A stretch of DNA of 45,407 nt from assembly GCA_007132095.1 (NCBI GenBank), contig SLPH01000058.1, forward strand, positions 1 through 45,407, given 5' to 3'. Both the position numbers and the translations under genes were made by a program. The notes beneath the pieces were generated by a model. That model did not search any database, was not told the DNA's origin, and saw only the letters and a list, made by a program, of their open reading frames with translations. Shown here piece after piece: positions 1,029-37,482 of the stretch. Origin of the DNA: Syntrophomonadaceae bacterium (lineage in GTDB: Bacteria > Bacillota > Dethiobacteria > DTU022). Within the stretch, counting starts at the first letter, position 1; every line of letters begins with the position of its first letter.

Positions 1029-2378
1029 TTACTTTGCATAGCCCAACTTCATCAACGTTTTCTCCAGCGAAACAGCCAGCTTTTGGATCATCATTTCAAT
1101 TTCTGCTTCGGAAATCGTGAAAGGCGGCCCGATGACAAGGTAGTCTCGCGGAATTATGTCGGCTGTAGGACCGACACCGGTATATGTGATCAACCCTTCC
1201 TCTAATGCTGTTTCACGAACTTTTTCTGCAACAGAGAGCGCAGGGTCAAATGATTCCTTACTGCTGCGATCCAAAACCAGCTCCAGGCCCATCAGGAGGC
1301 CGGTTCCGCGAATATCACCAACATGGGGGTGATCGGAAAAAGCTGCATGCAAATTCTTTTTAAGCAGTTCACCTTTTGGCCCAACCTGCTCAAATAACTT
1401 TTGTTCTCTTAAATAGCGGTGGACGGCAACGGCTCCTGCGCAGCTAACCGGGTTGCCCTGGTAAGTATAACCATGGTAAAACTTACCCCAGTTGGCGCTG
1501 AATACATCATGTATATCTTTGTGGGCTATGACTGCGCCCATGGGGATATAGCCGCCCCCAAGCCCTTTGCCCAGTGTGGTTAAGTCAGACGTTACGCCCC
1601 ATAGTTCCTGGGCTGTATAGCTGCCGGGTCGACCATAGCCGCAGAGAACTTCGTCGCAGATTAGCAGCACATCATGCTTTGAGCAAATTTCCCTGATCCT
1701 GGGGAAATACTCTTTTGGCGGCACGCTGGCTGCAGCAGAAGTACCAATAATCGGTTCGGCGATGAATGCGGCCACGTTGTCAGCGCCTTCGGCAAGGATT
1801 GTCTTTTCCAGTTCTTCAGCGCAAATAATTCCGCATTGCGGGTAGCTCAGGCCGTAGTAGCAGCGGTAGCAATGGGGGGCGGGGATCAAGGGGAAATTCA
1901 TCAACAGGGGAGAATACATCTTCCGACGTTCTACGTTACCGGCAGCTGAAAGGGTGGCAAAAGAACTTCCATGGTAGCTGAGCCTTCTGCCGATGACTTT
2001 GTATTTGCTGCTTTTCCCTCTTTGCATGTGATATTGCAGGGCCATGCTGATAGCAGTTTCGTTTGCTTCGGTTCCTCCCGACAAAAAATAGGCATAATCA
2101 AGCCCTTCAGGGGCCTTTTCTGTTACGAGGGCAGCTAACTCCTCCTGGGCTTCAGTGGTGAAAGTGCTGCCGTGGGCATAGCCTGTTTTCAGGGCCTCAT
2201 TTTTCAGTGCTTCAGCTACGGAGCTGACACCGTAGCCAATATTAGTGACCAGGCAACCGGAAGAGCCGTCTAAATACCTTTTGCCCTCTCCATCGTAAAG
2301 GTATACTCCTTCGCCGCGAACCGCAACAGGGTAATCTTTGTTTTGTGAACGGTAAAAAACATGCCCTTTCTTTAACAT
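1029..2378 (-). CDS. Class-III pyridoxal-phosphate aminotransferase (omega-amino acid/aspartate aminotransferase family)
   Basis: 449 aa; SGGTEANE, LLICDEVLCGYGRPG, TLGKGLGGGYIPMGAV (PLP Lys), YTYQGNPVSCA motifs. Confidence 0.9.
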   Translation of the reverse strand: MLKKGHVFYRSQNKDYPVAVRGEGVYLYDGEGKRYLDGSSGCLVTNIGYGVSSVAEALKNEALKTGYAHGSTFTTEAQEELAALVTEKAPEGLDYAYFLSGGTEANETAISMALQYHMQRGKSSKYKVIGRRLSYHGSSFATLSAAGNVERRKMYSPLLMNFPLIPAPHCYRCYYGLSYPQCGIICAEELEKTILAEGADNVAAFIAEPIIGTSAAASVPPKEYFPRIREICSKHDVLLICDEVLCGYGRPGSYTAQELWGVTSDLTTLGKGLGGGYIPMGAVIAHKDIHDVFSANWGKFYHGYTYQGNPVSCAGAVAVHRYLREQKLFEQVGPKGELLKKNLHAAFSDHPHVGDIRGTGLLMGLELVLDRSSKESFDPALSVAEKVRETALEEGLITYTGVGPTADIIPRDYLVIGPPFTISEAEIEMMIQKLAVSLEKTLMKLGYAK

Positions 2379-2574
2379 TATTCACGCTCCTGACAAAATG
2401 TAGTTTCAAAATATCGTTATTGAAGGTCTGACTAAATAATAGCTTAGAGTGACGCACAGCGCAATATCGCTTCTAAAAAGCATTATTTTACTATATCCTG
2501 ATGGCTGGTTGATGATTATGTCAAACAGGAAAAAGTAGACTAAAGGGCCCTGAATTTAGATGGACAAGGCTAAA

Positions 2575-2611
2575 CCGCGCTCCCTGCGGCGTTTAGCGGC
2601 GGGGAGCGCGG
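2575..2611 (-). terminator. Hairpin terminator-like downstream of the D-aminoacylase-like gene
   Basis: CCGCGCTCCC ... GGGAGCGCGG perfect 10-bp arms. Confidence 0.6.
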
Positions 2612-2644
2612 GATTAAATATTATCAGAGGTTTTATTAGTGGTC

Positions 2645-4027
2645 CTATAGCTCCCAGATCTTGTTAGGAAGGGTTACCGGTTTACCCGGTTTGCTATCCT
2701 GAACAAAACCGCCTTTTTCAACAACGGGAGCGCCGTTAACAATCACGTAATCGATTCCCGACGGAGGGGCATCAGGTTTACCCAGCCCGGGGTAATCACT
2801 ATTGTCGCGAATCTCTTTCAGGTCAAAAATAACCAGGTCGGCATCGGCGCCCGGACGAAGGTGCCCCTTGTCAGTGAGCCCAAGCCGCTGTGCCGGCAGC
2901 AGGGTGCACTTTTTAACTGCTTGCAATAGAGTAAGTATGCCTGTTTCGCGGACCATCAACCTGAAAAATCTGGGATAAGTCCCGCTATCCTGGGGATGTC
3001 CGGAGCCCGGCTCGGGTGACCCGACGCATCCGTCTGTCGAAACCATTACAAAGTATGCGGATAGCGCTTCAAGGACTTCGCTGTCCCGTCCGGCAAAGGC
3101 AACAATTACTGTATCAGGTTCATCTTGACGAAGCTTCTCAAACAGGGGCTGGTCGCACTGGCGTCCGGCGAAAGGACCGGTAGAAACATAGAAATCACTG
3201 TAATCAATGCCCCACTTTTCAAGACAGCCCGGATCAAAGACAGCGGATCCGATAAAAGTGGCAAACGCGCTGTAAAGGCCGCTGTCAGCAGTAATGTCAA
3301 GCCCTTCCCTGCGGGCATCGGCGATCATATTAAGAGCTTCGGTCATCATGCCCATTCCCACCATATAGGCTAAGTGGGCCACTTGGATTGAAGCGCCTGT
3401 TTCCCGGGCCAACCTGATTACCTCGTGAATTGCTTCAAGGCCTCGCCATGAATCATAACGGGTATGGATAGCGACCGGCTTGTTATAAAGGGCGGCTATT
3501 TTACTCAGTTCCCTGACCTCTTCGAACGAGCTGCCAGGAGCATACTCCAGACCCAGTGAAAGACCCAGGGCTCCTTCTTCTAATCCCTTTTCCAGTCTTC
3601 TGGTCATAGCTTCAATTTGATCTGCTGAAGCCGGGGCGTAAACATCTGTTAGTCCCGCTTCAGTCCGCATGCTAAAAGAATGCCCCACCAACTGACCCTG
3701 GTTTATGGGAAAGCCGGTTTCGGACATCTCCTGGAAGAATTGTTTTGGCCCAACAGGGCTGAGGCCGCAATTTCCGCCAACAGTGGTTGTGATCCCCTGC
3801 ATAGCGTAAAGCATGCCCCCGTATTGATAATTATCAACATGCGAGTGGATATCAATAAAACCGGGGCAGACAACTTTAAGGTCTGCATCGATCACTTTTT
3901 GTCCTTCAAGCTCACCCCTGGTTACGACGGCCACTTTTTCGTCTTTGATACCGATGTTGGCTAGAGTTAGCAAATCACTTGACGGTTCAACTAAAGTTGC
4001 GTTATTTATGACCAGATCAAACTGCAT
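2645..4027 (-). CDS. D-aminoacylase / N-acyl-D-amino-acid deacylase-family amidohydrolase
   Basis: 460 aa; VCPGFIDIHSHVDN, GNCGLSP, GLEYAPGS, STDGCVGS, AQRLGLTDKGHLRPGADADLVIFD. Confidence 0.85.
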   Translation of the reverse strand: MQFDLVINNATLVEPSSDLLTLANIGIKDEKVAVVTRGELEGQKVIDADLKVVCPGFIDIHSHVDNYQYGGMLYAMQGITTTVGGNCGLSPVGPKQFFQEMSETGFPINQGQLVGHSFSMRTEAGLTDVYAPASADQIEAMTRRLEKGLEEGALGLSLGLEYAPGSSFEEVRELSKIAALYNKPVAIHTRYDSWRGLEAIHEVIRLARETGASIQVAHLAYMVGMGMMTEALNMIADARREGLDITADSGLYSAFATFIGSAVFDPGCLEKWGIDYSDFYVSTGPFAGRQCDQPLFEKLRQDEPDTVIVAFAGRDSEVLEALSAYFVMVSTDGCVGSPEPGSGHPQDSGTYPRFFRLMVRETGILTLLQAVKKCTLLPAQRLGLTDKGHLRPGADADLVIFDLKEIRDNSDYPGLGKPDAPPSGIDYVIVNGAPVVEKGGFVQDSKPGKPVTLPNKIWEL

Positions 4028-4048
4028 CGGCTCAACTCCCGAAATTTA

Positions 4049-4963
4049 TTATTCAATAACTTTTTTCAGTATTTCTCCATATGTATCTACGCGGCGGTCA
4101 CGGTGGAACTGTAATACATCGCGGGACTTCTTGATCTCATCAAGATCGCATTCAGCCATAATAATCTCGTCATCCCTGGTTTTGGCCTTGGCCAGGATTT
4201 CGCCCCAGGGATTACTGATGAAACTGCAGCCGTAAAAGCTCATTTCACCTTCTTCGCCAACGCGGTTTACCGCTGCCACAAACATGTTATTGCAGATTCC
4301 ATGAGCACGGATAGCGGTAATCCAGGGTTCTGAAGTGTCTAAATCGGGATCGTCCGGTTCAGATCCGATTGCTGAAGGGTAGAAAACAATGTCTGCCCCT
4401 TTTAAGGCAACAATGCGGGAGGCTTCGGGGAACCACTGATCCCAGCAGATCAGAATGGCAATTTTCCCGAACCGGGTTCGAAACACGGGATAACCCATGT
4501 CCCCGGGAGTAAAATAGTATTTTTCAATATACTGTGGCCCTTCTGGAATATGGTTTTTTCTATATTTGCCAAGGTATGTTCCGTCTGCGTCGATAACGGC
4601 GGCAGTGTTGAAGTAAACTCCGTCCATTGCATATTCATAAACAGGAACCAGGAGTACAACTCCCAGCTCTTTTGCCAGCTCCTGAAACAGTTTGGTAGTT
4701 GGCCCGGGAACCGGTTCAGCCCAGTCATATTTTTTTACGTCGATAGTTTGTGGAAAATACCGGCCCTTAAAAAGCTCCTGGGGGCAGATGATTTTAGCTC
4801 CACCTTCGGCAGCTTCGCGAATTAACCTGATCGCTTTTTCCAGGTTTTCATTTTGATCTTCCGAGCAGGTCTGCTGGATTATAGCTACACTAACAGCGCC
4901 TTTTTTCATCATAATTTCTATCTCCTTTTTGTTGTTCATTAAACTGCTCACCGCAGAGGACAC
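4049..4963 (-). CDS. Nitrilase-superfamily amidohydrolase, N-carbamoylputrescine amidase-like
   Basis: 304 aa; catalytic triad contexts CPQELF (Glu), YRKNHIPEGPQYIEKYYFTPGD (Lys), CWDQWFPEASR (Cys), and FYPSAIGSEPDD, recalling AguB/CPA; start may be internal (MMKKGAVSVAI). Confidence 0.85.
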   Translation of the reverse strand: MSSAVSSLMNNKKEIEIMMKKGAVSVAIIQQTCSEDQNENLEKAIRLIREAAEGGAKIICPQELFKGRYFPQTIDVKKYDWAEPVPGPTTKLFQELAKELGVVLLVPVYEYAMDGVYFNTAAVIDADGTYLGKYRKNHIPEGPQYIEKYYFTPGDMGYPVFRTRFGKIAILICWDQWFPEASRIVALKGADIVFYPSAIGSEPDDPDLDTSEPWITAIRAHGICNNMFVAAVNRVGEEGEMSFYGCSFISNPWGEILAKAKTRDDEIIMAECDLDEIKKSRDVLQFHRDRRVDTYGEILKKVIE

Positions 4964-4978
4964 TTAAGCAAACTTGGT

Positions 4979-6352
4979 CTAGATGGTTGCGAACCCGACG
5001 ATCAGGTAGAGTAAGATAGCCAGGCCTGCCGGTATTATCAGCATAGGCAGGGTAGTCTTTGCATATTCGATATTGGGGATCTGGGTTGATGCACAGGTCA
5101 GAGTGGCTGCGTCGCCGTAGAAACAGGCATGGCTGCCGAAAGCTGCGGCAGAAATGACCGCGCCTGATGCCAGGAATACATTGACGCCGTATACTCCGGC
5201 CAGGGGGATAATAATGGGCAGTGAAATTGCGGCAACACCCCAGAAAGAACCTGTGCTGAAAGCAATTAGGGCCACTACAATAAAGGTCACGGCCGGCAGC
5301 AACCCACCGGTCATAAAAGGTTCGACCGATTCGATGACAAATGCGGTAAGACCTAAACCTTCATTGGCCTGCTGTAAAAAGAAGGCGGCGCAGACAATAG
5401 CAAGGGCCGGGATCATGTTTTGGAAACCTTCCATAAATGAATCCCAGAACTGGGAGAAATTCATTACCTTCCTTGATATATATAATGCCAGGCAGGAAGT
5501 GATTGCAATTAATACACCCCAGAGCATATCTTCGGTAATAATAGTTACCGCAGCCAGGATTAGCATGGGGACGATAAAATCAAGGATCTGAGGCTTCTTT
5601 TCCCCATCCTCTTCGGCAGCTTCAGAAAGAGATTCTTCTTTAACCTTATCCCTTACCCCGGGTGGGAAGAGTTCTCCTGCTTCGGCCCGCAGTTCAGCTT
5701 TTCTCATTGGCCCGAAGGTGGGAATAACTTTCAGGGCGACCAGCGGAACAACCAGAAGGGCAGCCCAGCCATAAAACACGTAGGGGATAGTTCTAATGAA
5801 CGCCGCCGTAGCAGAACCGTCGACCAGGACGCCGTTTGCGCCTAGCTGGCCGGCCATAAAAGCAGACCAGGTGGAGAAAGGGACAATTACGCATACAACA
5901 GCGCCGGTCGAGTTAATGACATAAGCCAGCAGTTCCCGCGGCACTTTGAAGTTATCCGTTACTTTGCGCATTGCTACGCCAACAGATAAAGCGTTCAGGT
6001 AATCGTCAACAAAAATCAGCATACCTAAGATCCAGGTGCCGATTAGCGAGGTTCCTCTTCCTTTGACTACATTGGTAGCGGCAATAGAAAAGCCCTTGGC
6101 TCCGCCCGATTTTTCGAGCAGGGCAATCAGGCTTCCGAAAAGGCCGCAGACAAGAACTACCCAGACTGTGACGTCATCCATCATCACAATGTAGATTGCG
6201 TCCAGCCATGCTGGAAAGAAACCGAATCCATCGAGCAATACAAAGCCGATTAATGAGCCAAACAAGAGGGGTTCAAAAGTTCTGCGGGTGATGATGGCAA
6301 GGGCGATAACTGAAAGAGCGGGGATAACACTAATAATGCCCATATGTTCCAT
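4979..6352 (-). CDS. Na+/H+ antiporter NhaC-family transporter
   Basis: 457 aa polytopic; FVDDYLNALSVG, STGSFWGVAAISLPIIIPLA, GSHACFYGDAATLT motifs. Confidence 0.85.
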   Translation of the reverse strand: MEHMGIISVIPALSVIALAIITRRTFEPLLFGSLIGFVLLDGFGFFPAWLDAIYIVMMDDVTVWVVLVCGLFGSLIALLEKSGGAKGFSIAATNVVKGRGTSLIGTWILGMLIFVDDYLNALSVGVAMRKVTDNFKVPRELLAYVINSTGAVVCVIVPFSTWSAFMAGQLGANGVLVDGSATAAFIRTIPYVFYGWAALLVVPLVALKVIPTFGPMRKAELRAEAGELFPPGVRDKVKEESLSEAAEEDGEKKPQILDFIVPMLILAAVTIITEDMLWGVLIAITSCLALYISRKVMNFSQFWDSFMEGFQNMIPALAIVCAAFFLQQANEGLGLTAFVIESVEPFMTGGLLPAVTFIVVALIAFSTGSFWGVAAISLPIIIPLAGVYGVNVFLASGAVISAAAFGSHACFYGDAATLTCASTQIPNIEYAKTTLPMLIIPAGLAILLYLIVGFATI

Positions 6353-6553: not shown

Positions 6554-8308
6554 TTAGATATCCAGTTCCTTTTTCTTTTCGTCAGTAACCCGGCCGTCGT
6601 TATCCCAGCCGCGAGCTCCATAGTATTCGGCCAGCATCCGCTCGTAATCTTCGCGGGGGATAACCTTGCCGGCAGCAGGACCGGTTGGCAGCGGATCCTT
6701 AAAGATCCGTTCGGGCAGGGTATCATCTTTTGATGAAAAACCTTCCCGTTCGTTAAACATGCGGGCCAGGTTATATGTTCTTTCGCCTACTTTTCTCAGG
6801 TCTTCAGGGCTGATTTCATAGCCGAGCGCCGCGCTTAAAATCTGGGCCTGAGTTTCGCCGTCAAGGCCCCAGAAGTCACAGAATATGGCGCAGAACTTGG
6901 CTGAATTGCCGTCCTGCATACCTTTAACCAGGGCCCCCTTGCCCTCAACCGTGTAAGGATCGAGATCGCCGAGCGCTTCCATGGAAATCGGCCAGGCCCG
7001 CATATGACATGCGCCGCGATCTGATGTAGCGTATGCCAGACCCATCCCCCAGGAGCCACGCGGCTCGTAACCGGGAAATTCAAGACCTTTGACCTGCATG
7101 GCAAATTCTCTGCCGCCGTACTTCTCGGCCAGATCGCGCACACCGAGAGCAAGGTCAGCCCCTACGCCTTCTTTGAGGGCTATAAGGGTAGGGACTTCGA
7201 GATAGGTGTCAACATCGCCGAAGCGAAGCCCGAAGTCGTGAATGCCCTTTTCTGTCATCTCCATGGCAAAAGCGGTAACATTGCCGGCAGATATGGTGTC
7301 GAGGCCGAGATCGTCGCAAAGGCGGTTGAATTCAATTACCGCTTCAAGGTCATCAATGCCGCAGTTCGAGCCGCAAAGGGCCAGGGTTTCATATTCGGGA
7401 CCTTCAACGCGGGTATGTCCGGATTTGACATAATTGCCGCAGCCCAGTGGGCAGGCGAAGCAAGCTTTTTTGCCCACTCGGACACCTTTTACCGCTTCGG
7501 TGTCAATACCTTTGTATCCATCGAAAGTGCTCTGCTGGAAGTTCTTTGTCGGCAGGGTGCCGGTTTCATTTGTCAGCTCAACGAGCATTGGTGTTCCGTC
7601 AGTGTAAGTCCAGTAATTATCTTCGGACATGGTGTCATTGCGGCGCAGCTTGTTCATGGCTGCAGTAAATTTACGAATGTCCGGTACTGTTACGCTGCCG
7701 CTTCCTTTGACGGCGATCGCTTTCAGGTTTTTACTGCCCATAACAGCCCCAATTCCGCCGCGGCCAGCCTGGCGGTAGAGCTCAGAACTGATGCAGGACA
7801 TGGGGACCAGGTTTTCGCCCGCCTGCCCGATAGTGAGAATTTTGGCGCTGCCGAGCGCATCCTTTAGCATATGTTCAGTTTCATGAGAGCCTTTGCCCCA
7901 TAATTTCCCCGCGCTGCGCAGTTCAACATTGCCATCTTCGATATAGAGATAGACAGGAAGTTTTGCCTTTCCGGTTACAATTACCCCGTCGTAGCCGGCG
8001 TACTTCAGCTCGGGAGCGAAAGCGCCTCCGATAGAACAGTCAAGGATAGTACCTGTGGCCGGCGATTTAGAAGCTATAGCCAGTTTACCGGAATTGGGAA
8101 CGATTGTACCTGTAAGAGGGCCGGTCATTAAGACTAATACATTGTCAGCGGATAGGGGATCTACTCCCGGTTTAAGCTCTTCAAATACATACTTGATGCT
8201 CAAACCTTTGCCGCCCAGGTAATCGCGGGCCCACTGCTTGGGCAGGTTTTCAGTATGGGATTCTCCGGTCGACAAGTTTATTTTCAGGATTTTACCGGTG
8301 TATGCCAT
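6554..8308 (-). CDS. Aldehyde:ferredoxin oxidoreductase family (tungsto/molybdopterin) protein
   Basis: 584 aa; KGLSIKYVFEEL, SGKLAIASKSPATGTILDCSIGGAFAPELKYAGYDGVIVTGKA, GRGGIGAVMGSKNLKAIAVKG, CFACPLGC Fe-S motif; ATG directly abuts the upstream TAA. Confidence 0.95.
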   Translation of the reverse strand: MAYTGKILKINLSTGESHTENLPKQWARDYLGGKGLSIKYVFEELKPGVDPLSADNVLVLMTGPLTGTIVPNSGKLAIASKSPATGTILDCSIGGAFAPELKYAGYDGVIVTGKAKLPVYLYIEDGNVELRSAGKLWGKGSHETEHMLKDALGSAKILTIGQAGENLVPMSCISSELYRQAGRGGIGAVMGSKNLKAIAVKGSGSVTVPDIRKFTAAMNKLRRNDTMSEDNYWTYTDGTPMLVELTNETGTLPTKNFQQSTFDGYKGIDTEAVKGVRVGKKACFACPLGCGNYVKSGHTRVEGPEYETLALCGSNCGIDDLEAVIEFNRLCDDLGLDTISAGNVTAFAMEMTEKGIHDFGLRFGDVDTYLEVPTLIALKEGVGADLALGVRDLAEKYGGREFAMQVKGLEFPGYEPRGSWGMGLAYATSDRGACHMRAWPISMEALGDLDPYTVEGKGALVKGMQDGNSAKFCAIFCDFWGLDGETQAQILSAALGYEISPEDLRKVGERTYNLARMFNEREGFSSKDDTLPERIFKDPLPTGPAAGKVIPREDYERMLAEYYGARGWDNDGRVTDEKKKELDI

Positions 8309-10063
8309 TTACCTGCTCACCTCCTTGGAAGTTACAGCCTTGGTCGGGCACCAGTTCACGCAGCTCATGCACTGCACGCAAACCCCGACCCCTCTTTCCT
8401 TGCCGACAATAACACCCTCTGGGCATATATCGACACATAATTTGCAATCGGTGCAGGCATCAAGATCGAAAAAGAGACGCCCATTTTTCAACTGGATAGC
8501 GCCTGTCGGGCAGGCATTTACACATTCAAGGCAGAGGTCGCAGGTTTGCCCTTTTACTTCCAGGTCATCCCTGGTGTATTCGGAGGAAACTTTTAACCTG
8601 GCTAATGCAGGGTTAAATACGCCTTCATTTTGAGCGCTGCAGGCTAAATGGCAGAGCTTACAGCCAATGCATTTATCAGCTTCAAAGTTCAGGATTTTTG
8701 ACGCCTTGCCTGACAGTGATACGGTGCCGGCGCCGGGTGAAACGCCCTGAAGAACTTTATCCAGGGTTTCGACAACTGTGTCCATTTCTTCGTAAGAGAT
8801 TGTCAGTGTCGGTTCGATCCGGATAGTGATGGCGCTGATCAATGTCCCGGCAACCAGGACACCATGATCAAAGAGGCCCTTGGCTACCTCGTAGCCGGTC
8901 TCGTCGTCAATAAAATCTAAGCCGATTAACAAGCCCTTACCTCTGGCTTCTTTCATGGCCGGATATTTTTCTGCTACCTGCTTCAGCTTGCCCAGGAAGT
9001 ATTCTCCCTTCTCTTCCGATTGCCGGACCAGGTCCTCTTCGATAATGACATTGATTGTGGCAATTGCAGCTGCACAGGCCAGCGGGTTTCCGCCGAATGT
9101 TGTGGTGTGCAGGAAAGGGTTGGGAGTCATTTTTTCAAATATCTCTTTCGTGGAAACGAAAGCGCCAATCGGCATCACACCGCCGCCAAAAGCTTTGGCC
9201 AGGCAGAGTATGTCGGGCACCACATCGTAGTGTTCCATGGCAAACATTTTTCCAGTACGGCCCATCCCGGTCTGGACTTCGTCGGCTATCAGCAGCACCC
9301 CGTATTCGTCGCAAATCTGACGAACTTCTTTGAAATAGCCTTCGGGAGGAATAATGACTCCACCCTCACCCTGGACCGGTTCCAGGATTACGGCTGCAAT
9401 CTCATTTCCAACCGCAAAGCTGCTGTAAATAATTTTCCTCATTGTTTCAGCGTCACCGTAGGGGACATGCTGAACGCCCGGTAGTAATGGTAGATAAGGG
9501 GTTCTGAACACAGCTTTGGCTGTGCAGCTTAACGAACCCAGCGATTTGCCGTGAAATGCGCCAACAGTAGAGATTATGCCGGGCCTGCCGGTGTGCAATT
9601 TGGCAAGCTTCAAAGCTCCTTCGATAGTTTCAGTGCCGCTGTTGGTAAAAAATGCATAGTTAAGTTCACCGGGTGTGATCATGGAAACCAGCTTTGCCAG
9701 CATCCCTCTCAAAGGGTCAAGCAGTTCCTGGCTATGCAGGGCCTGGCGATCCAGCTGATTCCTAACCGCCTGGACTACTTTTGGGTGACGGTGTCCAACA
9801 TTGTAAATGCCGTAGCCCCCCAGGCAGTCGATAAATTTACGTCCATAGATGTCAGTGAAGCCAGTACCGCTGTCTTCCCACTCTACTGCAGCATAATCTG
9901 TGGAAACTGATTTGCGGTAATCCAGAAAGCCGGGGTTATAATTGTCCCGGAACCCGGTTACGGTTTCTTCTGCCACCCAATCTTTTTCCTCCCTGGTCAA
10001 CTCCCGTTTCGCTACGAAATCGAGTATCTGTTGGGAGTAGCCAAGGGCTTTTCGCCTATCCAT
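8309..10063 (-). CDS. Fusion: putrescine aminotransferase (PatA/YgjG-like) + C-terminal 4x[4Fe-4S] polyferredoxin domain
   Basis: 584 aa continuous ORF; N-terminal NPGFLDYRKSV, FIDCLGGYGIYNVGHRHP, HSQELLDPLRGMLAKL, DEVQTGMGRTGKMFA, LCLAKAFGGGVMPIGA match my recall of PatA; C-terminal CIGCKLCHLAC, CDLCLECVNAC, CTDCKLCVDIC, CVQCMSCVNWC. Confidence 0.93.
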   Translation of the reverse strand: MDRRKALGYSQQILDFVAKRELTREEKDWVAEETVTGFRDNYNPGFLDYRKSVSTDYAAVEWEDSGTGFTDIYGRKFIDCLGGYGIYNVGHRHPKVVQAVRNQLDRQALHSQELLDPLRGMLAKLVSMITPGELNYAFFTNSGTETIEGALKLAKLHTGRPGIISTVGAFHGKSLGSLSCTAKAVFRTPYLPLLPGVQHVPYGDAETMRKIIYSSFAVGNEIAAVILEPVQGEGGVIIPPEGYFKEVRQICDEYGVLLIADEVQTGMGRTGKMFAMEHYDVVPDILCLAKAFGGGVMPIGAFVSTKEIFEKMTPNPFLHTTTFGGNPLACAAAIATINVIIEEDLVRQSEEKGEYFLGKLKQVAEKYPAMKEARGKGLLIGLDFIDDETGYEVAKGLFDHGVLVAGTLISAITIRIEPTLTISYEEMDTVVETLDKVLQGVSPGAGTVSLSGKASKILNFEADKCIGCKLCHLACSAQNEGVFNPALARLKVSSEYTRDDLEVKGQTCDLCLECVNACPTGAIQLKNGRLFFDLDACTDCKLCVDICPEGVIVGKERGVGVCVQCMSCVNWCPTKAVTSKEVSR

Positions 10064-10188
10064 AGTTGGTTAACCTCCTTGTTAAGTATTATTGAGTTTA
10101 GAAAATATATGGAGTTTATATAATTAACGATCCCTCCCGAAAATCCTTTTTTATATTGGTTTAACTAAAGGTTTCCCCTATAATACTT

Positions 10189-10204
10189 TGCAAAAAGGGT
10201 GCCA
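10189..10204 (-). promoter_or_regulatory. Sigma-54 (-24/-12) promoter for the aminotransferase-ferredoxin/AOR operon
   Basis: minus strand TGGCAC-CCTTT-TTGCA, exact match to TGGCAC-N5-TTGCW; 126 nt upstream of the start codon. Confidence 0.88.
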
Positions 10205-10266: not shown

Positions 10267-10282
10267 TTCTCAAAAAAGAGAA
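10267..10282. promoter_or_regulatory. Putative EBP-binding site A1, TTCTC-N6-GAGAA
   Basis: TTCTCAAAAAAGAGAA perfect dyad. Confidence 0.75.
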
Positions 10283-10296
10283 GTATGGAGTTTAAC

Positions 10297-10312
10297 TTCT
10301 CGAATTTGAGAA
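10297..10312. promoter_or_regulatory. Putative EBP-binding site A2, TTCTC-N6-GAGAA
   Basis: TTCTCGAATTTGAGAA perfect dyad, 30 bp from A1. Confidence 0.75.
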
Positions 10313-10331: not shown

Positions 10332-12125
10332 ATGGCGGGTCTTTTGGAGATTCAGTCCACGGTTCAGGATGTTGCCGATGCAATATCTGCGGCGTTGGGC
10401 ATTGAGGTTGAAATAGTCAACGACAAGCTGACGGTGGTCGCGGGAAGCAGCCACTACAGGTACCGGGTGGGGCAGAAGCTCGAGTTTGGAGAGGTTAGGG
10501 GAAATTTTCTTTACGCCCGGACGCTGAGAAGTAAAAAGCCCTCTGTTATAACTGACCCCGCCGGTGATCCAAGCTACGATCCATCTTCGCTTTCCGGAAC
10601 AACCAAAGAACTTGGAGAAATCTGCAGCCCAATTCTTTTTGAGGGTCAGGCTGTAGGAGTGATCGGTTTATCGGCATTAGATGAGCCGCAGCGAGAACAG
10701 CTGCTGGACAAAAGGGATGCAGTTTTAAACTTTTTGAAACATATGGGACGCCTCCTGACCGCTAAGCTTTCAGAAGCGGTAACAATGGAAAGGCTGACAA
10801 CCCTGTCCCGCGAACTAGCGGTAGTTCTGGAAACAATCCATGAAGGAGCGCTTGCAGTTAACGCTGAAGGAATAGTCACACACTGTAACAGTAATGCTGC
10901 CCAGCTTCTAAAAGCCAGGGCGGAAGAGATCATCAGTCGCCCGCTAAAAAGCTTTTGGGATAGCGCCCAGGCTTTGGAGGTGCTGAAAACGGGTCAGCCG
11001 TACACGGAGAGAGAAGAACTATACCATACCGGCCAGCGCCGGCTGCATTTTATAGTATCAGTCAGGCCAATTCCGGGCGACAAGAAGCCGGTGGGAGCCG
11101 TGATTTCATTCCGCGATATATCAGAAGCCAGGCGCCTGATCTATGATTTAAGCGATCACCGGGCCCAGTATACTTTTAAAGACATAATTGGCGGCAGCAG
11201 GGCCTTGAAAAGGGTAAAAGAGCAGGCCTTGCAGGTAGCAGGGGGTAATTCCACCATCTTGATCACCGGTGAGAGCGGTACGGGAAAAGAGATTTTTGCC
11301 CGGGCAATTCACGGGGCCAGCTCCTGGGAAAAGGGGCCTTTTATCAGCATCAACTGCGGGGCAATTCCGGAATCTTTGCTCGAAAGCGAACTGTTCGGTT
11401 ATGAAGGAGGGGCCTTTACCGGGGCTCGTAAAGAAGGAAAAGCCGGTAAGTTTGAATTAGCTGACGGCGGAACGATTTTTCTTGATGAAATCGGGGAAAT
11501 GCCGCTGCATTTACAGGTTAAGCTTTTGCATGTTTTACAGAATCGCGAAGTTGAGCGGGTAGGTGGGAACAAAAAGATTCCGGTTAATGTGAGAATAATC
11601 GCTGCCACTAACCGCGACCTGGAAGTGATGCTCCAGGAAGGTAAGTTTAGAAAAGACCTGTATTTTAGATTAAGTGTAATTCCGCTGCACATTCCCCCGC
11701 TTAAAGACAGGCAGGAGGATATCCCTCCACTGGTTAATAACTGCCTGGAGAAATATAGCCTTATGACCCACGATCAACCCTTGAAACTTGAAGCCGATGT
11801 AATGGAAAGGTTCCTCCAATACCCCTGGCCTGGTAATGTGCGGGAGCTGGAAAATGCTGTGGAATACTGCGTAAATATGACCGGTGGGGATACAATTACA
11901 TCAAGCCATATCCCGCCGCGAATCCTCCGCTTTGGCGAACAGCAAAAGCAGATGTCTGCCCTTGATTATAAAGCCTTGATCAAAAATTATGAGAGGGATC
12001 TTCTTGCAGAATACCTCGAACGCTACGGCACTTCATACCGATCCAAGATGGCAATTGCGCGAGACCTTAATATCAGTCGCGCCACACTTTACCGTAAACT
12101 GGACGAACTCGGGCTTTCTCAATAG
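10332..12125 (+). CDS. Sigma-54-dependent transcriptional activator (GAF-like sensor, PAS, AAA+, Fis-type HTH)
   Basis: 597 aa; [10 protein letters not shown] Walker A, GAFTGA loop, FLDEIGEMP Walker B, C-terminal NISRATLYRKLDEL HTH. Confidence 0.95.
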   Translation: MAGLLEIQSTVQDVADAISAALGIEVEIVNDKLTVVAGSSHYRYRVGQKLEFGEVRGNFLYARTLRSKKPSVITDPAGDPSYDPSSLSGTTKELGEICSPILFEGQAVGVIGLSALDEPQREQLLDKRDAVLNFLKHMGRLLTAKLSEAVTMERLTTLSRELAVVLETIHEGALAVNAEGIVTHCNSNAAQLLKARAEEIISRPLKSFWDSAQALEVLKTGQPYTEREELYHTGQRRLHFIVSVRPIPGDKKPVGAVISFRDISEARRLIYDLSDHRAQYTFKDIIGGSRALKRVKEQALQVAGGNSTILITGESGTGKEIFARAIHGASSWEKGPFISINCGAIPESLLESELFGYEGGAFTGARKEGKAGKFELADGGTIFLDEIGEMPLHLQVKLLHVLQNREVERVGGNKKIPVNVRIIAATNRDLEVMLQEGKFRKDLYFRLSVIPLHIPPLKDRQEDIPPLVNNCLEKYSLMTHDQPLKLEADVMERFLQYPWPGNVRELENAVEYCVNMTGGDTITSSHIPPRILRFGEQQKQMSALDYKALIKNYERDLLAEYLERYGTSYRSKMAIARDLNISRATLYRKLDELGLSQ

Positions 12126-12136
12126 TGAGAAAGCCC
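12111..12136 (+). terminator. Hairpin overlapping the EBP stop codon; also contains TTCTC-N6-GAGAA
   Basis: GGGCTTTCTC-AATAGT-GAGAAAGCCC perfect 10-bp arms. Confidence 0.55.
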
Positions 12137-12297
12137 GCAGGATTCCTTTTACAGCTACAAAGTAGGGGTATTTGGTTTCGCTCGAAATATTGAATGATGC
12201 TGGCAGTGAAAAAGGGCAGGCAGCCTGTTTGGCCGCGTGCCCCCTTTTGCTTCATGTGCCTGCTTTTAAAACGGAACCTGAAGGTTGTCGTCCGGTA

Positions 12298-13875
12298 TTA
12301 CCCGTTCACAATTTTTCCTTCGGCGTCAGTGATTGGTTTAGGCGGACTGCTTTTCTGGGTGGCCAGCGAAACTATAACCATGGTTGCTATAGCAATTATG
12401 GTCGCTGGAACCAGGGCAATGTAGATTGCATCCCAGATTGCCCATTCCATGAACACTTCGCCTTCAACCATAATGTCGAGATTTGCTTCCGAGGTCATCG
12501 GCAGGGTCATGAAGAATATAACAACCCAGGAGACCAGGCCGGCAATATAAGAGGAAATTGCCCCGATGTTGTTAGCTTTTTTCCAGAAAAAGCCGAAAAC
12601 GTAGGGGGCAAAGATAGTGCAGAGTGCGATAGCGCCGGTGAATACAATCAGCCGGTAGACAGAACCGAAGAAAAGGGCTACACCGAGAGCTATGAGAGCG
12701 ATAACAGGGGTAGCGAAGCGGACCACTTTAAGCTCCTCTTGTTTGGTCGCTGTCGGCTTGATATAACGGTATACGTTATGTCCGACCATAGTTGCTCCGA
12801 TCAGGACATTGTCGCCTGAAGTGCTGATAATCGCAGCGGCCAGGGCGACGATGAAAAGAACGCTCGCAAATGGAGGCATGAAATTGCCGGCAACCCAGGG
12901 CAACACGAACTCAGCGGTGACCGGATCCAGTTCCAGCCCCCAGGTAAACATGGCAATACCGATCGTGACCGGAATCAAACCGAGGATAAGATAAGTGAAA
13001 GCGCTAATGTAAAAGCCCTTGGTAGCTGTTTGATGGTCTTTTGCGGCCAGGGCTCTTTGTAACAAGATCTGGCTGTTTACATCGCCAAGGCCGAGCGATG
13101 CCCAGGCAGCAATGTAATAAGCGATACCGATAATTCCGGTGTACCAGAGGTAACCTTCTTCTCCGGCCAGCGGAACCATGGCAAACGCCGGTATTTCGCC
13201 CCAGACTTCAGCGGTAGCGAAAAACTGGCTGAATCCTCCCACTTCGCGCATAACCACGGGCAGCATGATCACCAGTCCAACCAGGATCAGGGCGAACCCG
13301 ATTGCGTCTACGCGGGAAAGGGCCCACAAGCCGCCGTAATAGGTGACAATGATAACTACAATGGTTGCAACAATGATCGCTATGTTCATATCAAAACCGG
13401 TGGTTAAGTGAAGGATGATGCCAAGAGCAACAAGCTGGCCACCGAGCCATCCGAACACAACCAGGACCTGGATGAGCATATATAAAAAACCCATGAAGGG
13501 GCCAAAGCGGCTGTTAAAAAAGTCAACTACCGTGGTATAGCCCAGTTTTCTCATCCTGCCGGCAAAAAAGATGCCGATCAGGATCATGGTCAGGAATGGT
13601 CCCCAGGGATCAAAGATGGTCCCCTGGAAACCATAGAGGTAGCCCCAGCCTGCAGCGCCCATCAGCGCCCCGGCACAGATCCAGGTCGCCACAATGGATG
13701 GAACCATGAATGGCAGGGTCAGGTTGCGGCTGGCTAACGCCCAATCGTCCGCTTCCGTAATTCTTTTAGAATAAAAAATACCCAGAAATAGCACGACAAC
13801 GAGGTAAATAGCAATAAAAATCAAAATCCATGTCGCCTGTGAAAATGTTTCAACTACCGGTGTATCCAAGTACAA
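12298..13875 (-). CDS. Sodium:solute symporter (SSS) family transporter
   Basis: 525 aa polytopic; SSS-like order of TM segments, GWGYLYGFQG, AAIISTSGDNVLIGATMVGHNVY. Confidence 0.9.
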   Translation of the reverse strand: MYLDTPVVETFSQATWILIFIAIYLVVVLFLGIFYSKRITEADDWALASRNLTLPFMVPSIVATWICAGALMGAAGWGYLYGFQGTIFDPWGPFLTMILIGIFFAGRMRKLGYTTVVDFFNSRFGPFMGFLYMLIQVLVVFGWLGGQLVALGIILHLTTGFDMNIAIIVATIVVIIVTYYGGLWALSRVDAIGFALILVGLVIMLPVVMREVGGFSQFFATAEVWGEIPAFAMVPLAGEEGYLWYTGIIGIAYYIAAWASLGLGDVNSQILLQRALAAKDHQTATKGFYISAFTYLILGLIPVTIGIAMFTWGLELDPVTAEFVLPWVAGNFMPPFASVLFIVALAAAIISTSGDNVLIGATMVGHNVYRYIKPTATKQEELKVVRFATPVIALIALGVALFFGSVYRLIVFTGAIALCTIFAPYVFGFFWKKANNIGAISSYIAGLVSWVVIFFMTLPMTSEANLDIMVEGEVFMEWAIWDAIYIALVPATIIAIATMVIVSLATQKSSPPKPITDAEGKIVNG

Positions 13876-14004: not shown

Positions 14005-14020
14005 TGCAATAGTTGTGCCA
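14005..14020 (-). promoter_or_regulatory. Sigma-54 (-24/-12) promoter for the SSS symporter gene
   Basis: minus strand TGGCAC-AACTA-TTGCA, exact consensus, about 130 nt upstream of the start. Confidence 0.87.
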
Positions 14021-14093: not shown

Positions 14094-14109
14094 TTCTCAT
14101 GTTTGAGAA
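14094..14109. promoter_or_regulatory. Putative EBP-binding site B1, TTCTC-N6-GAGAA
   Basis: TTCTCATGTTTGAGAA perfect dyad. Confidence 0.75.
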
Positions 14110-21106: not shown

Positions 21107-21273
21107 GATCTAAGGCTAATATGACTTTATGTTTTCAAAACTGAGGTCTCCTGGTCAAATATGAGCGCTCTCAATTATTGTTCAAACCGAGGGGAAAGGC
21201 GCAATGCAGGCATTTTCTAGTTGGCATAGATCTTGCTTTTAATAATATCAATACAATATGAATAATTAAATTT

Positions 21274-21674: not shown

Positions 21675-22115
21675 ATGTATAAAATACTGATAGCTATAGA
21701 CGGTTCTGAGCATTCCGAAAAAGTACTTAAGGAAGCGATTACTATTGCCGAACCCCTGGGCGCCGCAATAACAATTCTTACTGTGATTGTAAGAGATTAT
21801 CTGCCACCTTCGGTGAGTATTCAGTTTACAGATGATGTGTGGGATACTGTTAACGCGAACCTGCAGGAAGAAGCCGAAGCCCTGGTCGCAAAAAGTGCCG
21901 CTCCTTTTAAAGAGAAAGGTTTAGAAGTAAACACGAAAGTAGTTTTCGGGCGCAAACCGCCTTCGGAGATCATCTGCGAAGAGGCACAGGAAGGAAAGTA
22001 TAACCTTGTTATGCTGGGCAGTCACGGTTTAAGAGGGTTTCGCGAGGCATTGCTGGGCAGCGTTAGCAACAAGGTCGCTCACTGCCTCAATGGCAATGTC
22101 ATGATCGTTAAGTAA
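21675..22115 (+). CDS. Universal stress protein UspA family
   Basis: 146 aa; KILIAIDGSEHSEK, VMLGSHGLRGFREALLGSVSNKVAH. Confidence 0.95.
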   Translation: MYKILIAIDGSEHSEKVLKEAITIAEPLGAAITILTVIVRDYLPPSVSIQFTDDVWDTVNANLQEEAEALVAKSAAPFKEKGLEVNTKVVFGRKPPSEIICEEAQEGKYNLVMLGSHGLRGFREALLGSVSNKVAHCLNGNVMIVK

Positions 22116-26362: not shown

Positions 26363-27426
26363 ACCCGCTGTCCCCCCTTCTCAAAAATCATGCATATCTC
26401 TGCTTCAATTTCTTCAGGTGTGGGTATTGTGCCACCGGGGTAGCCTTTGAAGTATACTTCGCTATTTCCTGAGCAGGCCAACCTGACATCGTCTACCATC
26501 TGGCCCGTATTCAGTTCGATAACCAGGGTGCGGCCGGACTTGCCAGCAGCTTCTGCAACAGCCTGTTCCGGAAAGGGAAAAAGGGTTATCGGTCTGACCA
26601 GGCCAACCGGAAGCCCTCTTTTGCGGGCCCTGGAAACTGCAGTTTTGACTATTCTGCCGGCTGAGCCAAAAGCTATCACAGCCAGGGCGCAGTTCGATGG
26701 ACAGTCAACTTCGACCCGGGTGTCGTTTTTTTTCAGGAGGTTATATTTTTCATGCATTTTCCAGTTGTGAACGGTCATTTCACCGTCTTTCAGATAAAGA
26801 GATTTAACCAGCCGCGGAGCCCTGTTCTTAGCACCGTTTAAAGCCCATGGGGCTTCGGGGTCAGGGGTTTTTGCCGGGTTGATTAATACCGGTTCTTTCA
26901 TCTGGCCGAGAATTGCATCGGCAAGGATCATAGCAGGGTTTCTGTAAGAAAAAGCGAGGCGTATAGCTTCACCGGCCAGATCATACATTTCCTGGACAGA
27001 GTTTGGGGCCAAAACGATCAGGCGGTAGTCGCCATGCCCCCCACCGCGCGTAGCCTGGCCGTAATCGCCCTGGGTTGCGGCTATACCGCCTAACCCGGGA
27101 CCACTGCGGGCGATATTGACTATAAGGGCGGGCAGCTCCGAACCGGCCAGGTATGAAAGGCCTTCCTGCATGAGCGAGATGCCGGGACCTGATGATGAAG
27201 TCATCGTTATTTTACCGGCCGCGGCGGCGCCCAACACCATATTGATTGATGCCAATTCGCTTTCAGCTTGCACGAATACACCGCCAACTGCGGGCAATTC
27301 TGCGGAAAGGTATTCGGGGATTTCATTTTGCGGCGTTATGGGGTATCCAAAATAATAACGGCAGCCTGCGTCGATCGCACCCATCGCCAGGGCAACATTG
27401 CCTTTAAGCAGTAATTTATCCGACAT
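26350..27426 (-). CDS. 2-oxoacid:ferredoxin oxidoreductase alpha subunit, VorB-like
   Basis: YYFGYPITPQNEIPEYLS, TSSSGPGISLMQEGLSYLAGSELPALIVNIAR, TRGGGHGDYRLIVLAP as in VorB-annotated proteins. Confidence 0.92.
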   Translation of the reverse strand: MSDKLLLKGNVALAMGAIDAGCRYYFGYPITPQNEIPEYLSAELPAVGGVFVQAESELASINMVLGAAAAGKITMTSSSGPGISLMQEGLSYLAGSELPALIVNIARSGPGLGGIAATQGDYGQATRGGGHGDYRLIVLAPNSVQEMYDLAGEAIRLAFSYRNPAMILADAILGQMKEPVLINPAKTPDPEAPWALNGAKNRAPRLVKSLYLKDGEMTVHNWKMHEKYNLLKKNDTRVEVDCPSNCALAVIAFGSAGRIVKTAVSRARKRGLPVGLVRPITLFPFPEQAVAEAAGKSGRTLVIELNTGQMVDDVRLACSGNSEVYFKGYPGGTIPTPEEIEAEICMIFEKGGQRVCRL

Positions 27427-27710: not shown

Positions 27711-27960
27711 AAAACCCCTTCGTTCCCATTGAAGAGACGAAAGGGTATTCTTCCGCGGTACCACTCTAATTGTCAGCCTGCGCAGGCCGACCTCTTAAAG
27801 CTATAACGGCGCCACCGGCTCCTGCTTAATAGACTTTCTCACTTAGTCTTTCAGCGGGCTGCTCCTGGGGGAGTTCTATCGCCCGGGCGTGCCGCTTTTG
27901 CAGCTGGTGGCGGCTCTCTTAAACGCCGGTTGGCGATATACTATTTCCATTCATGGCATT
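27711..27960 (-). promoter_or_regulatory. T-box riboswitch leader
   Basis: minus strand AGTA (S-turn), AGAGAG bulge, GAACTC specifier-loop candidate, AGAGTGGTACCGCGG T-box core, then CCCTTTCGT...ACGAAGGGGTTTT terminator. Confidence 0.88.
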
Positions 27961-28264
27961 TTCTATAAAATTACTTTTAAATATAGCCTAATTCGACTTT
28001 TCCGTCAACCCTCAGATGGCGTTCGGATAGCGTTAAGCCATTGCAGGGAAAAGAAACCTCATTTTCAGCTCATACAGCAATACAATTGCCCAAACCTCTT
28101 AACGCCTTTCCGGTTAAATTGTCCGGCCTGTTCAGTAGCAGCGATAGACTAGCTAGGCGGAGTCTTCTCTCGGCGGGTGTTGAGGTCGGCGCCGAATTTG
28201 GTATAATAATCATCATAAGCTGAACAGGTAAAATCTGATCATCAGAAAAGGGGCTGGTTAAGCA

Positions 28265-33773: not shown

Positions 33774-35744
33774 TTAAGCTTCCCCCGCACCGGTACTGTT
33801 ATTATCTGGCATTCGCAGTTTTTTCCAGAGTGTAGTTCGGCTGATGCCCAATCTTTTTGCAATTTCCACTTTATTTTCAGCAGGATGCATCTGCTGCGTT
33901 TTTTCAATTATCTCCTGTTCCATCTCTTCCATGGTTCCCATGGAAATAACAATTTTGCCTTTTTCAGGCGCTGCCTGATCATCTTCAGCAATATATTCAC
34001 TGCCAAAAGAATAAAGTTCTTTGATTAAATCGTTTAATGTATTCAGGGGATTGCTGCTGACTTCGCTTAAAGTTACGTATTTTTCAACGAAATTAGCCAG
34101 TTCCCGAACATTTCCCGGCCATGGGTACCTTTCGAGCCAGCGTTGAATGGTTTCCGAGAATTCAAAATCAACAGCGGCTGGGGAATAAGCGGTTTTGACA
34201 AAATACTTGAACAGGAAAATTATATCCTCCTTGCGATTACGCAGTGGGGGAATGTTCAATTGTAAAACGTTTAGCCGGAAAAAGAGATCCCGCCTGAACT
34301 GGTTATCCATCAACATCCTGGTAAGATCGCGATTGGTAGCGGCAATTATTCTTACATCAACAGGCACAAGCCTGTCGCCTCCTAACCTGCGGACAGCTTT
34401 TTCCTGTAATACTCTCAGGAGACGGGATTGAAGAGAAAGAGGCATTTCGGAGATTTCGTCCAGGAACAAGGTTCCTCCATGGGCCAATTCAAACAAACCC
34501 GGCTTACCGCCTTTTTGTGCCCCTGTAAAAGCTCCTTCGTCATAGCCGAAGAGTTCGCTTTCCAGCAGGTTTTCCGGAATTGCGGCACAGTTTACCGCTA
34601 CGAAAGGGCCGTCGCTGCGCAGGCCTGCAGTGTGTATGCTGTGGGCGAAAAGCTCCTTGCCTGTACCGCTTTCTCCTGTTATTAGCACTGTTGAGTTTGT
34701 TTTAGCATAGCCCCGGGCGCGTAAAACAGCGTTCTTAATAGAGGCCGATCTGGCTGCTATGTCATCGAAAGTAAACCTTGACACCAGGCCTTTCGTGTAG
34801 AGTTCACGGCGAATCTTGGCTTCGAGTTTTTGGATTTTGCTGACCCGCTGCAGGGTAACCATGACTCCGAAAGGCTTGCTCCTGTTTTGCAGGGCAATGC
34901 GGTTGGCAAGAATCCGGTTTCCCCTGATATCGATAACCTTCGAGGGCTCAATGCAGCCAGGATCGAGAAACTCTTTAAACTCGTAATATAAGCCTGATAT
35001 CTCAGCCATTGGCCTCCCCACGATCTCTTTCTGTTTCAGGCCGATTAAGTTTTCTGCAATAGGATTGAAATGCGAAATCCTGTTTTGGCGATCCAGGGCT
35101 AAAACGCCGGTTTCAGTATTGTCAATTATTGCCTGTAGAAATTCAGCCATTTCCAGGTCTTTCTGGCGGATAGCCAGCAAATCTGCCGCCCTTTGAAAAG
35201 CATCAACTATTGCTTCACGGCTGGAGTAGACCATCACGCCTTGCATCCCCTTTTCCCTGGCCATACGTATTGTGCATTCTCCCGTTGCAACCACGACATC
35301 GGCTTTCCATGCTGCGGCTGCATCGACCTGGGCTTCAAGCATGCTGCGGTCTTCGTAATAAAAAGGTTTGGCTCTCTCCTGCAGATGAAGAATTTTCAGG
35401 AGATTGGATTTTTCATAAAATGATTTGCGGGATATATGTTCAAAGAAGGCGATTTTACGGCCGACTTCTTTGGCGCGATAAAAAGCCTGCAGGGCATCAT
35501 AAGGAGTGATCTGAATCAGGATAACCGGGATGGATACAATATTTTTTATAAATACTCCTGTAGCCCCGCGGCTGATAATACATTCGACCTTGTTTTTTTC
35601 AAAATCGCGCGCTGCGGTAACCCCTCTTTCCAGGGCCTCCTCTACAATATTGACAGCAAGCTTCATTTCATCGGCCACTTCACGCGCGGTTAATGTTAAT
35701 TCGGGATAAGGTGAAATCATGGCAATTCCGCTTTTTGCATTCAT
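33774..35744 (-). CDS. Sigma-54-dependent activator with PrpR-type N-terminal domain and PAS
   Basis: 656 aa; PrpR_N-like ([37 protein letters not shown]), [26 protein letters not shown], Fis [15 protein letters not shown]. Confidence 0.93.
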
Positions 35745-36089
35745 ATATTAAACACCCCCGATAATTATTATACGGTTTCTGGCAGGATAAGGTCAATCTA
35801 TGTTTAATATACTAACAAGGGCGCAGAAATCCGCCGCCCCGGGAGAACCCTGAACGCCTCTGAAAAGACGAGGTGGCGGCAAGACATCTAGTCAAATTTA
35901 AGCTAAAACTAAAGGCCGGCAATTTCAGTCCCGATGTCGTTGACAATGTGAACTTTAATGTTAATTAAATGAACGTGTAGTCAGCTTGCTCTATGCCGCC
36001 AGCGTATTGGGCATTGCGCCAGGGTCCGGAAAGCGCTGCCTGGCGGGCGTTTAAGAATATTATAGGAATCAGGCTGTGAAGCGGCTTAT

Positions 36090-36105
36090 TGGCAAGAATA
36101 TTGCT
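36090..36105 (+). promoter_or_regulatory. Sigma-54 (-24/-12) promoter for the thiolase operon
   Basis: TGGCAA-GAATA-TTGCT, one mismatch to TGGCAC-N5-TTGCW. Confidence 0.78.
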
Positions 36106-36300: not shown

Positions 36301-37482
36301 ATGGGTAAAGCAGTAATTGTTAGCGCAGTGCGCACTGTCGGCGGCAGGTATGGCGGCGGTTTAAGTAAGATGAGCGCGCCTGAACTCGGCGCTGCCGTTG
36401 TTAAAGAGGCCGTAAAAAGAGCCGGCATGCCCGGCGATGAGGTAGATGAGTTAGTATTTGGTTGCGGCTGGCAGGCAGGTATTGGGCCAAACGTTGCCAG
36501 GGTAGCCACTGTTAACGGAGGGCTTCCCCAGGAGGTGCCCGCTTACACTGTTAATATTCGTTGTGCTTCCAGTCTTCAGGCAACCATTCAGGGCACCCGT
36601 TCGGTTTTGCTGGGAGATTCTGATGTAGTTGTAGTTGGAGGGACAGAATCGGCATCGAACGTTCCCTACCTTTTGGACAAAGCGCGTTGGGGCGCCCGCA
36701 TGGGCGACTTTAAAGCTTATGACGGCCTGCACAAGGATGGTTTTATGTGTCCCCTGGCCGGCATGCTGATGGGTAACACGGCTGAACTTCTAGCTGAAAA
36801 ATATAGCATTGACCGCAAAGAACAGGATTCTTTTGCACTTGAAAGCCACACCAAGGCTGTCAAGGCGATCAAAGAAGGCCGTTTCAAGGATGAAGTAATG
36901 CCTATCGAGATTAAATCCCGTAAAGGTACGGTCACAGTTGTTGACGAAGAGATTCCGCGTGAAGATGCTTCTGTGGAAATGATGGGTAAACTGCCTCCCG
37001 TGTTCCAGAAAGACGGTACAGTAACTGCAGGAAACAGCTGTGCTCTTTGCGATAACGCTTCTGCAATGGTGATCATGTCCGAAGAAAAAGCCAAGGTGCT
37101 GGGCCTGGAACCGCTGGCTGTCATTCGCGGTTATGCGGCCAAAGGCGTGGATCCAAAATACATGGGTATTGGACCTGTAGCCGCGGTTCCCATTGCCTGT
37201 GAAAATGCCGGTGTAAAGCTGGACGACATCGATTTAATCGAGCTTAACGAAGCTTTTGCTGTGCAGTACCTGGCAGTGGAAAGAGAAATGAAGTGGGACC
37301 GGGATAAAGTAAACGTTTACGGTGGGGCGATTGCACTGGGACACCCGGTTGGATCAACGGGAACCAAGATTTTGACCACCCTGTTATACGCTTTGCAGAG
37401 CCAGGATAAAACCCTTGGCCTGGTAAGCGCTTGTGTCGGCGGCGGGCAGGGACTGGCCATTATTGTAGAGAGGCTTAAATAA
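36301..37482 (+). CDS. Thiolase / acetyl-CoA acetyltransferase
   Basis: 393 aa; NIRCASSLQATIQGT, NEAFAVQYLA, GGAIALGHPVGSTGTKI, CVGGGQGLAIIVE. Confidence 0.95.
   Translation: MGKAVIVSAVRTVGGRYGGGLSKMSAPELGAAVVKEAVKRAGMPGDEVDELVFGCGWQAGIGPNVARVATVNGGLPQEVPAYTVNIRCASSLQATIQGTRSVLLGDSDVVVVGGTESASNVPYLLDKARWGARMGDFKAYDGLHKDGFMCPLAGMLMGNTAELLAEKYSIDRKEQDSFALESHTKAVKAIKEGRFKDEVMPIEIKSRKGTVTVVDEEIPREDASVEMMGKLPPVFQKDGTVTAGNSCALCDNASAMVIMSEEKAKVLGLEPLAVIRGYAAKGVDPKYMGIGPVAAVPIACENAGVKLDDIDLIELNEAFAVQYLAVEREMKWDRDKVNVYGGAIALGHPVGSTGTKILTTLLYALQSQDKTLGLVSACVGGGQGLAIIVERLK

Follow-up and report, generated by a model that had tools for sequence, protein, structure and literature searches.

A predicted sigma-54 promoter and divergent activator gene before an aminotransferase-ferredoxin/AOR operon in a Syntrophomonadaceae bacterium

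How is an operon that encodes a putrescine-aminotransferase-like protein joined to a ferredoxin, together with an aldehyde ferredoxin oxidoreductase (AOR), switched on? The question is raised by a 45,407-nucleotide contig of a Syntrophomonadaceae bacterium (SLPH01000058.1, assembly GCA_007132095.1), which was analyzed over its whole length and is called the window here. The original prediction placed an exact-consensus sigma-54 promoter at 10189-10204, in front of the fusion and AOR genes. From the sequence, we assign a probability of about 0.9 to the joint reading that this element is a working sigma-54 promoter of the aminotransferase-ferredoxin/AOR operon and that it acts by the mechanism proposed below.

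The promoter and the genes around it

The features on both sides of the intergenic gap are as follows.

10189-10204, minus strand: sigma-54 -24/-12 promoter, exact consensus
10064-10178, minus strand: predicted leader of the operon mRNA, 115 nt, with no significant structure and no Rfam family
8309-10063, minus strand: fusion of a putrescine-aminotransferase-like domain and a ferredoxin domain, 584 aa (Aminotran_3, Fer4)
6554-8308, minus strand: AOR (AFOR_N, AFOR_C), directly abutting the fusion gene
1029-6352, minus strand: possible distal operon genes of uncertain membership (NhaC-type antiporter, carbon-nitrogen hydrolase, amidohydrolase, second class-III aminotransferase)
10332-12125, plus strand: sigma-54 activator (enhancer-binding protein), with PAS, AAA+ with GAFTGA, and a probable C-terminal HTH (Pfam)

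The plus strand at 10189-10204 is TGCAAAAAGGGTGCCA. Read on the minus strand (10204-10189), it is TGGCACCCTTTTTGCA, that is TGGCAC-CCTTT-TTGCA, which fits TGGCACNNNNNTTGCW (TGGCAC-N5-TTGCW, with invariant GG and GC) with zero mismatches, at the coordinates and in the orientation originally claimed. Position 10202 holds the -24 G and position 10190 the -12 C; recomputation from these positions returned the predicted start at 10178 and the leader of about 115 nt that had been proposed (115 nt to the ATG at 10063). Under a first-order Markov model of the window, 0.066 exact matches are expected on both strands of the whole window, and 0.0004 in the 268-bp intergenic gap alone. Two were observed, at 10189-10204 and 14005-14020, both on the minus strand and with the activator gene (10332-12125) between them.

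When two mismatches were permitted, 25 sites were found in the window against 25.5 expected. Near-matches thus occur at chance level and only exact matches carry weight; a tally of all near-matches was discarded as uninformative. The same chance frequency speaks for the view that the 16-mer is itself a functionless chance match and that an ordinary vegetative promoter serves the operon. We consider this highly improbable: the match is exact, well placed and well oriented, it is kept in at least 12 genomes while its spacer varies, and a scan of the minus strand upstream of the operon for a sigma-70-like site found none.

The class-III aminotransferase domain of the fusion passed NF008570 (702 against 612 bits) and missed TIGR03372 (594.6 against a cut-off of 658.65). 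It shares 58% identity with E. coli YgjG, and 11 of the 12 residues checked are the same, F91 being replaced by Y. The ferredoxin domain carries several 4Fe-4S motifs. As for the extent of the operon, conservation links only the fusion gene and AOR; the four downstream genes (1029-6352) are missing at the corresponding position in the nearest relatives, L041 and G028, and lie outside the conserved unit. The leader showed a fold z-score of -0.47 and no Rfam match, and a riboswitch or other structured leader was rejected. A GGGAGG island lies some tens of nucleotides before the start codon and is conserved in the window, L041 and G028; a leader peptide was rejected by eye, as no consistent start codon follows the island.

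The divergent gene starting at 10332 was borne out as a sigma-54 activator gene by a Sigma54_activat score of 240.9 bits (Pfam) for 10332-12125. Both the Walker motifs and GAFTGA are present in the AAA+ domain, and the N-terminus is GAF-like with a score just under the curated cut-off. At the C-terminus, where a Fis-type HTH is expected, HTH_8 scored 21.2 bits against a cut-off of 22, and HTH_50 and HTH_7 also fell under theirs; the helix is invariant in orthologues, and a 13-member ortholog alignment shows no change in either GAFTGA or the HTH segment SRATLYRKL. No receiver domain was found in the activator, which is therefore probably a small-molecule sensor. PrdR is its best NCBIfam match; identity with PrdR was ruled out by the score against NF041552 (463.5 bits against a cut-off of 795).

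RpoN is encoded elsewhere in the genome (PF04552, 211 bits, full ORF, RpoN box SRRTVAKYRE). With RpoN encoded, the site facing the operon, a GAFTGA-type activator gene divergent to it and the element kept in relatives, the sigma-54 promoter reading is supported. The element is very probably the on-switch of the predicted amine-degrading operon. In itself, the promoter is an ordinary example of a well-known class.

Candidate activator sites and a second promoter

Of the following features, the second exact promoter and the candidate activator sites were absent from the original prediction.

10267-10282, unstranded: proximal candidate activator site (UAS) TTCTCAAAAAAGAGAA, centered 73 bp upstream of the -24 element
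10297-10312, unstranded: distal candidate UAS TTCTCGAATTTGAGAA, centered 103 bp upstream of the -24 element
14005-14020, minus strand: second exact sigma-54 promoter TGGCACAACTATTGCA (TGGCAC-AACTA-TTGCA), predicted start 13994
14094-14109, unstranded: candidate UAS TTCTCATGTTTGAGAA, centered 84 bp upstream of the -24 element of the second promoter
12298-13875, minus strand: sodium/solute symporter (SSF) by family match and synteny, beyond the activator gene as seen from the operon
12110-12137, unstranded: terminator-like hairpin CGGGCTTTCTCA-ATAG-TGAGAAAGCCCG, spanning the activator stop codon and including a fourth palindrome copy

The palindrome TTCTC-N6-GAGAA was derived by eye from the DNA upstream of both window promoters. 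Since the window sites defined it, only the relatives provide an independent test. Copies occur in the window at 10267, 10297, 12116 and 14094, and at two further places in the 2.16-Mb genome. With one mismatch permitted, five matches were found in the window against 1.4 expected, and none of 100 shuffles reached five. The form with an A/T-rich spacer has four matches in the genome, three of which are the promoter-linked window sites; the fourth lies on a short contig, inside open reading frames, and does not precede an aminotransferase or AOR gene.

Activator sites of sigma-54 promoters were taken to lie roughly 70-250 bp upstream, a range that includes the centers of both palindromes in front of the first promoter (73 and 103 bp). 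The distal UAS is 30 bp from the proximal one and 20 nt before the ATG of the activator, and its distance of 103 bp recurs in L041 and G028. Both palindromes and the -24/-12 element appear as conserved islands in a three-way alignment of the window with these two relatives. The copy at 12116 was rejected as a UAS; it lies in the inner portion of a perfect 12-bp hairpin that spans the activator stop codon, for which a structure at the end of the transcript is the better reading.

The predicted start of the second promoter, 13994, lies 119 nt ahead of the SSF symporter start codon. In several relatives SSF orthologues follow AOR. That the SSF gene of the window has its own promoter and its own palindrome supports a single regulon.

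The mechanism that we propose is as follows. RNA polymerase with RpoN would bind 10189-10204 as a closed complex. The divergently encoded activator would bind the WTCTCRWWWWYGAGAW palindromes at 10267-10282 and 10297-10312 and loop to the promoter, and ATP hydrolysis by its GAFTGA-containing AAA+ domain, as expected from its protein family, would open the promoter near 10178. The N-terminal GAF/PAS region of the activator would probably be the sensor, and the small molecule that it recognizes would most likely be one of the amines or aldehydes in the pathway. The shared sites suggest that the SSF transporter gene is under the same activator as well, by way of 14005-14020 and the palindrome at 14094. 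Judging from protein families and synteny, an amine (by homology putrescine or a similar diamine) would be transaminated to an aldehyde, which would be converted to the acid on AOR with transfer of the electrons to ferredoxin. The best reading of the locus is a dedicated sigma-54 circuit that would induce anaerobic amine oxidation.

Sigma-54 elements were also found elsewhere in the genome. The genome as a whole has 19 TGGCAYN5TTGCW sites; 17 of them fall outside any open frame of 150 aa or more, and most closely precede the start of a gene. Control by sigma-54 thus seems to be a general feature of catabolic genes in this genome. A second putrescine-aminotransferase-like gene of the same genome (L159:3446-4852; 56% identical, without ferredoxin) has its own exact sigma-54 promoter, TGGCACGAAAGTTGCA, from which transcription is predicted to begin 40 nt ahead of the start codon.

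Several side observations concern other loci. In the window, the stretch 33774-36105 holds a second sigma-54 activator gene (minus strand, PrpR_N type), which diverges from a thiolase gene with its start at 36301, and a one-mismatch -24/-12 site, TGGCAAGAATATTGCT, at 36090-36105 on the plus strand. A sigma-54-like site, TGGCATAGATCTTGCT (21222-21237, plus strand), is located about 430 nt before the genes for a universal stress protein (21675-22115) and an alpha/beta hydrolase. A T-box leader (RF00230, 112.8 bits; 27730-27963, minus strand) lies shortly before a gene for a 2-oxoacid:ferredoxin oxidoreductase, whose start is at 27426. On another contig of the genome, C137, four sigma-54-like sites fall within 7 kb (L161:2704-9725); one precedes a protein that by eye resembles MttB-type methyltransferases, and this is perhaps a methylated-amine sigma-54 cluster.

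Conservation in related genomes and the possible substrate

A family search found the activator at 61% identity or more in 15 of 43 genomes, and the loci were retrieved and mapped. The orthologous activator is 64-73% identical in twelve related genomes. TGGCAY-N5-TTGCR (or TTGCT) adjoins the activator or its operon in twelve relatives, namely L041 (identical to record G065), G028, G063, G016, G002, G020, G008, G005, G012, G019, G027 and G023; the background of the element in the same loci is 0.015 per 250 bp, with the orthologous sites included. Across the orthologous loci the -24/-12 letters are fixed and the five spacer letters vary, and where the loci are divergent the element is kept between the activator and the operon. 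In G013 the -12 element is degenerate, and G015 has a related activator without the aminotransferase-ferredoxin/AOR operon.

Ten of the twelve relatives have the palindrome with no more than one mismatch; in G028 and G016 it has two, at shuffle frequencies of 0.08-0.13. The combined shuffle p for eleven regions, uncorrected for relatedness, was 1.5e-11. Its consensus is WTCTCRWWWWYGAGAW, and its center lies 97-155 bp upstream of the -24 element in L041, G002, G020, G008, G005, G012, G019 and G027, all with at most one mismatch. It is still conceivable, though improbable, that the sigma-54 promoter is real and is driven by a different activator of the genome, and that the palindrome serves another DNA-binding protein, for instance a repressor. 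A first look at the genome gave 26 candidate activators, and the link of palindrome and activator is one of co-occurrence alone. On the other hand, activator and palindrome lie next to each other in almost every relative examined, the HTH does not vary where the palindrome is kept, and three of the four A/T-spacer matches in the genome flank the divergent activator gene. Control by this activator remains our preferred reading.

The conserved core of the operon consists of the aminotransferase, a 4Fe-4S ferredoxin and AOR. Aminotransferase and ferredoxin form one protein only in the window, G028 and L041, and are encoded separately, by genes for about 446 and 130 aa, in seven relatives (G016, G002, G020, G008, G005, G019 and G027), which points to a probably recent gene fusion. 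G012 and G023 lack the aminotransferase but retain ferredoxin, AOR and SSF. The activator of G008 faces saccharopine-dehydrogenase-like genes instead of the operon, and the aminotransferase-ferredoxin-AOR operon of this genome is on another contig with its upstream end cut off.

These loci also bear on the substrate. The promoter may be as described while the substrate is not putrescine and the activator unit is specialized for another aldehyde, such as an amino-acid semialdehyde, the aminotransferase being interchangeable; we regard this as a tenable but lesser possibility. It would suit G012 and G023, which have activator, ferredoxin and AOR without the aminotransferase, and also G019 and G027, whose aminotransferases are merely 45-49% identical. 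Proteins resembling saccharopine dehydrogenase, with a weak match to carboxynorspermidine synthase, recur near these loci as well; in G002 one is encoded after SSF (L149:4741-6042). Putrescine is favored, however, by the window protein, which passes the putrescine aminotransferase model and keeps all but one of the YgjG residues checked. The spermidine synthase gene that follows the activator in G002 (L149:13661-14569) also favors it, as do the 302-aa ORFs, of the same length as this gene, that follow the activator in four other relatives. Taken together, the recurrent saccharopine-dehydrogenase-like genes and the spermidine synthase of G002 make a polyamine or amino-acid semialdehyde theme likely. 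The compound that induces the activator should belong to the pathway, and it offers a direct route to finding the substrate.

Comparison with known systems

We lean slightly towards a wider reading in which ferredoxin-linked amine oxidation in uncultured Syntrophomonadaceae-like bacteria is governed by a group of activators that has not been described and that has a palindrome of its own. Transaminase and AOR would there take the place of an NAD-linked aldehyde dehydrogenase, and in one clade the ferredoxin is covalently linked to the transaminase. If this is true, the ferredoxin-linked pathway would yield low-potential electrons from amines. The proposed circuit ties an unusual fusion enzyme and an AOR to specific inducible control, and brings to the clostridial sigma-54 regulons an activator group with its own predicted binding site. 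A literature search covering few subscription papers found none that links AOR with putrescine and an aminotransferase, and none that links AOR with a sigma-54 enhancer-binding protein.

The homologous enzyme of E. coli is the putrescine aminotransferase PatA (YgjG; 58% identity), and patA expression in that organism is sigma-54-dependent. E. coli pairs YgjG with the aldehyde dehydrogenase YdcW (PMC4244111), whereas AOR and ferredoxin are the partners here.

The sigma-54 regulons that serve fermentation and amino-acid catabolism in clostridia are well documented (PMC6615313). Two sigma-54 activators that act on amino-acid catabolism in Clostridia, PrdR and OrdR, resemble the present system in that the activator adjoins the catabolic operon and has multiple upstream sites. 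However, the window activator scores far under the PrdR cut-off, and the site reported for PrdR is TGT-N10-12-ACA (PMC6615313), not TTCTC-N6-GAGAA. Another similar system is AorR of Clostridium, in which a predicted sigma-54 promoter and a dedicated activator likewise precede the AOR gene aor (Nie et al. 2019, PMC6615313). Its target, aor-moaD, was read as serving alcohol synthesis, its reported site is likewise TGT-N10-12-ACA, and no regulon in Table 1 of that paper pairs an aminotransferase with aor. The conserved site found upstream here is TTCTC-N6-GAGAA, which differs from the one reported for AorR, and the operon has an aminotransferase and ferredoxin. Sigma-54 control of AOR has a known precedent in AorR; the activator, its predicted binding site and the gene set described here add another example of such control.
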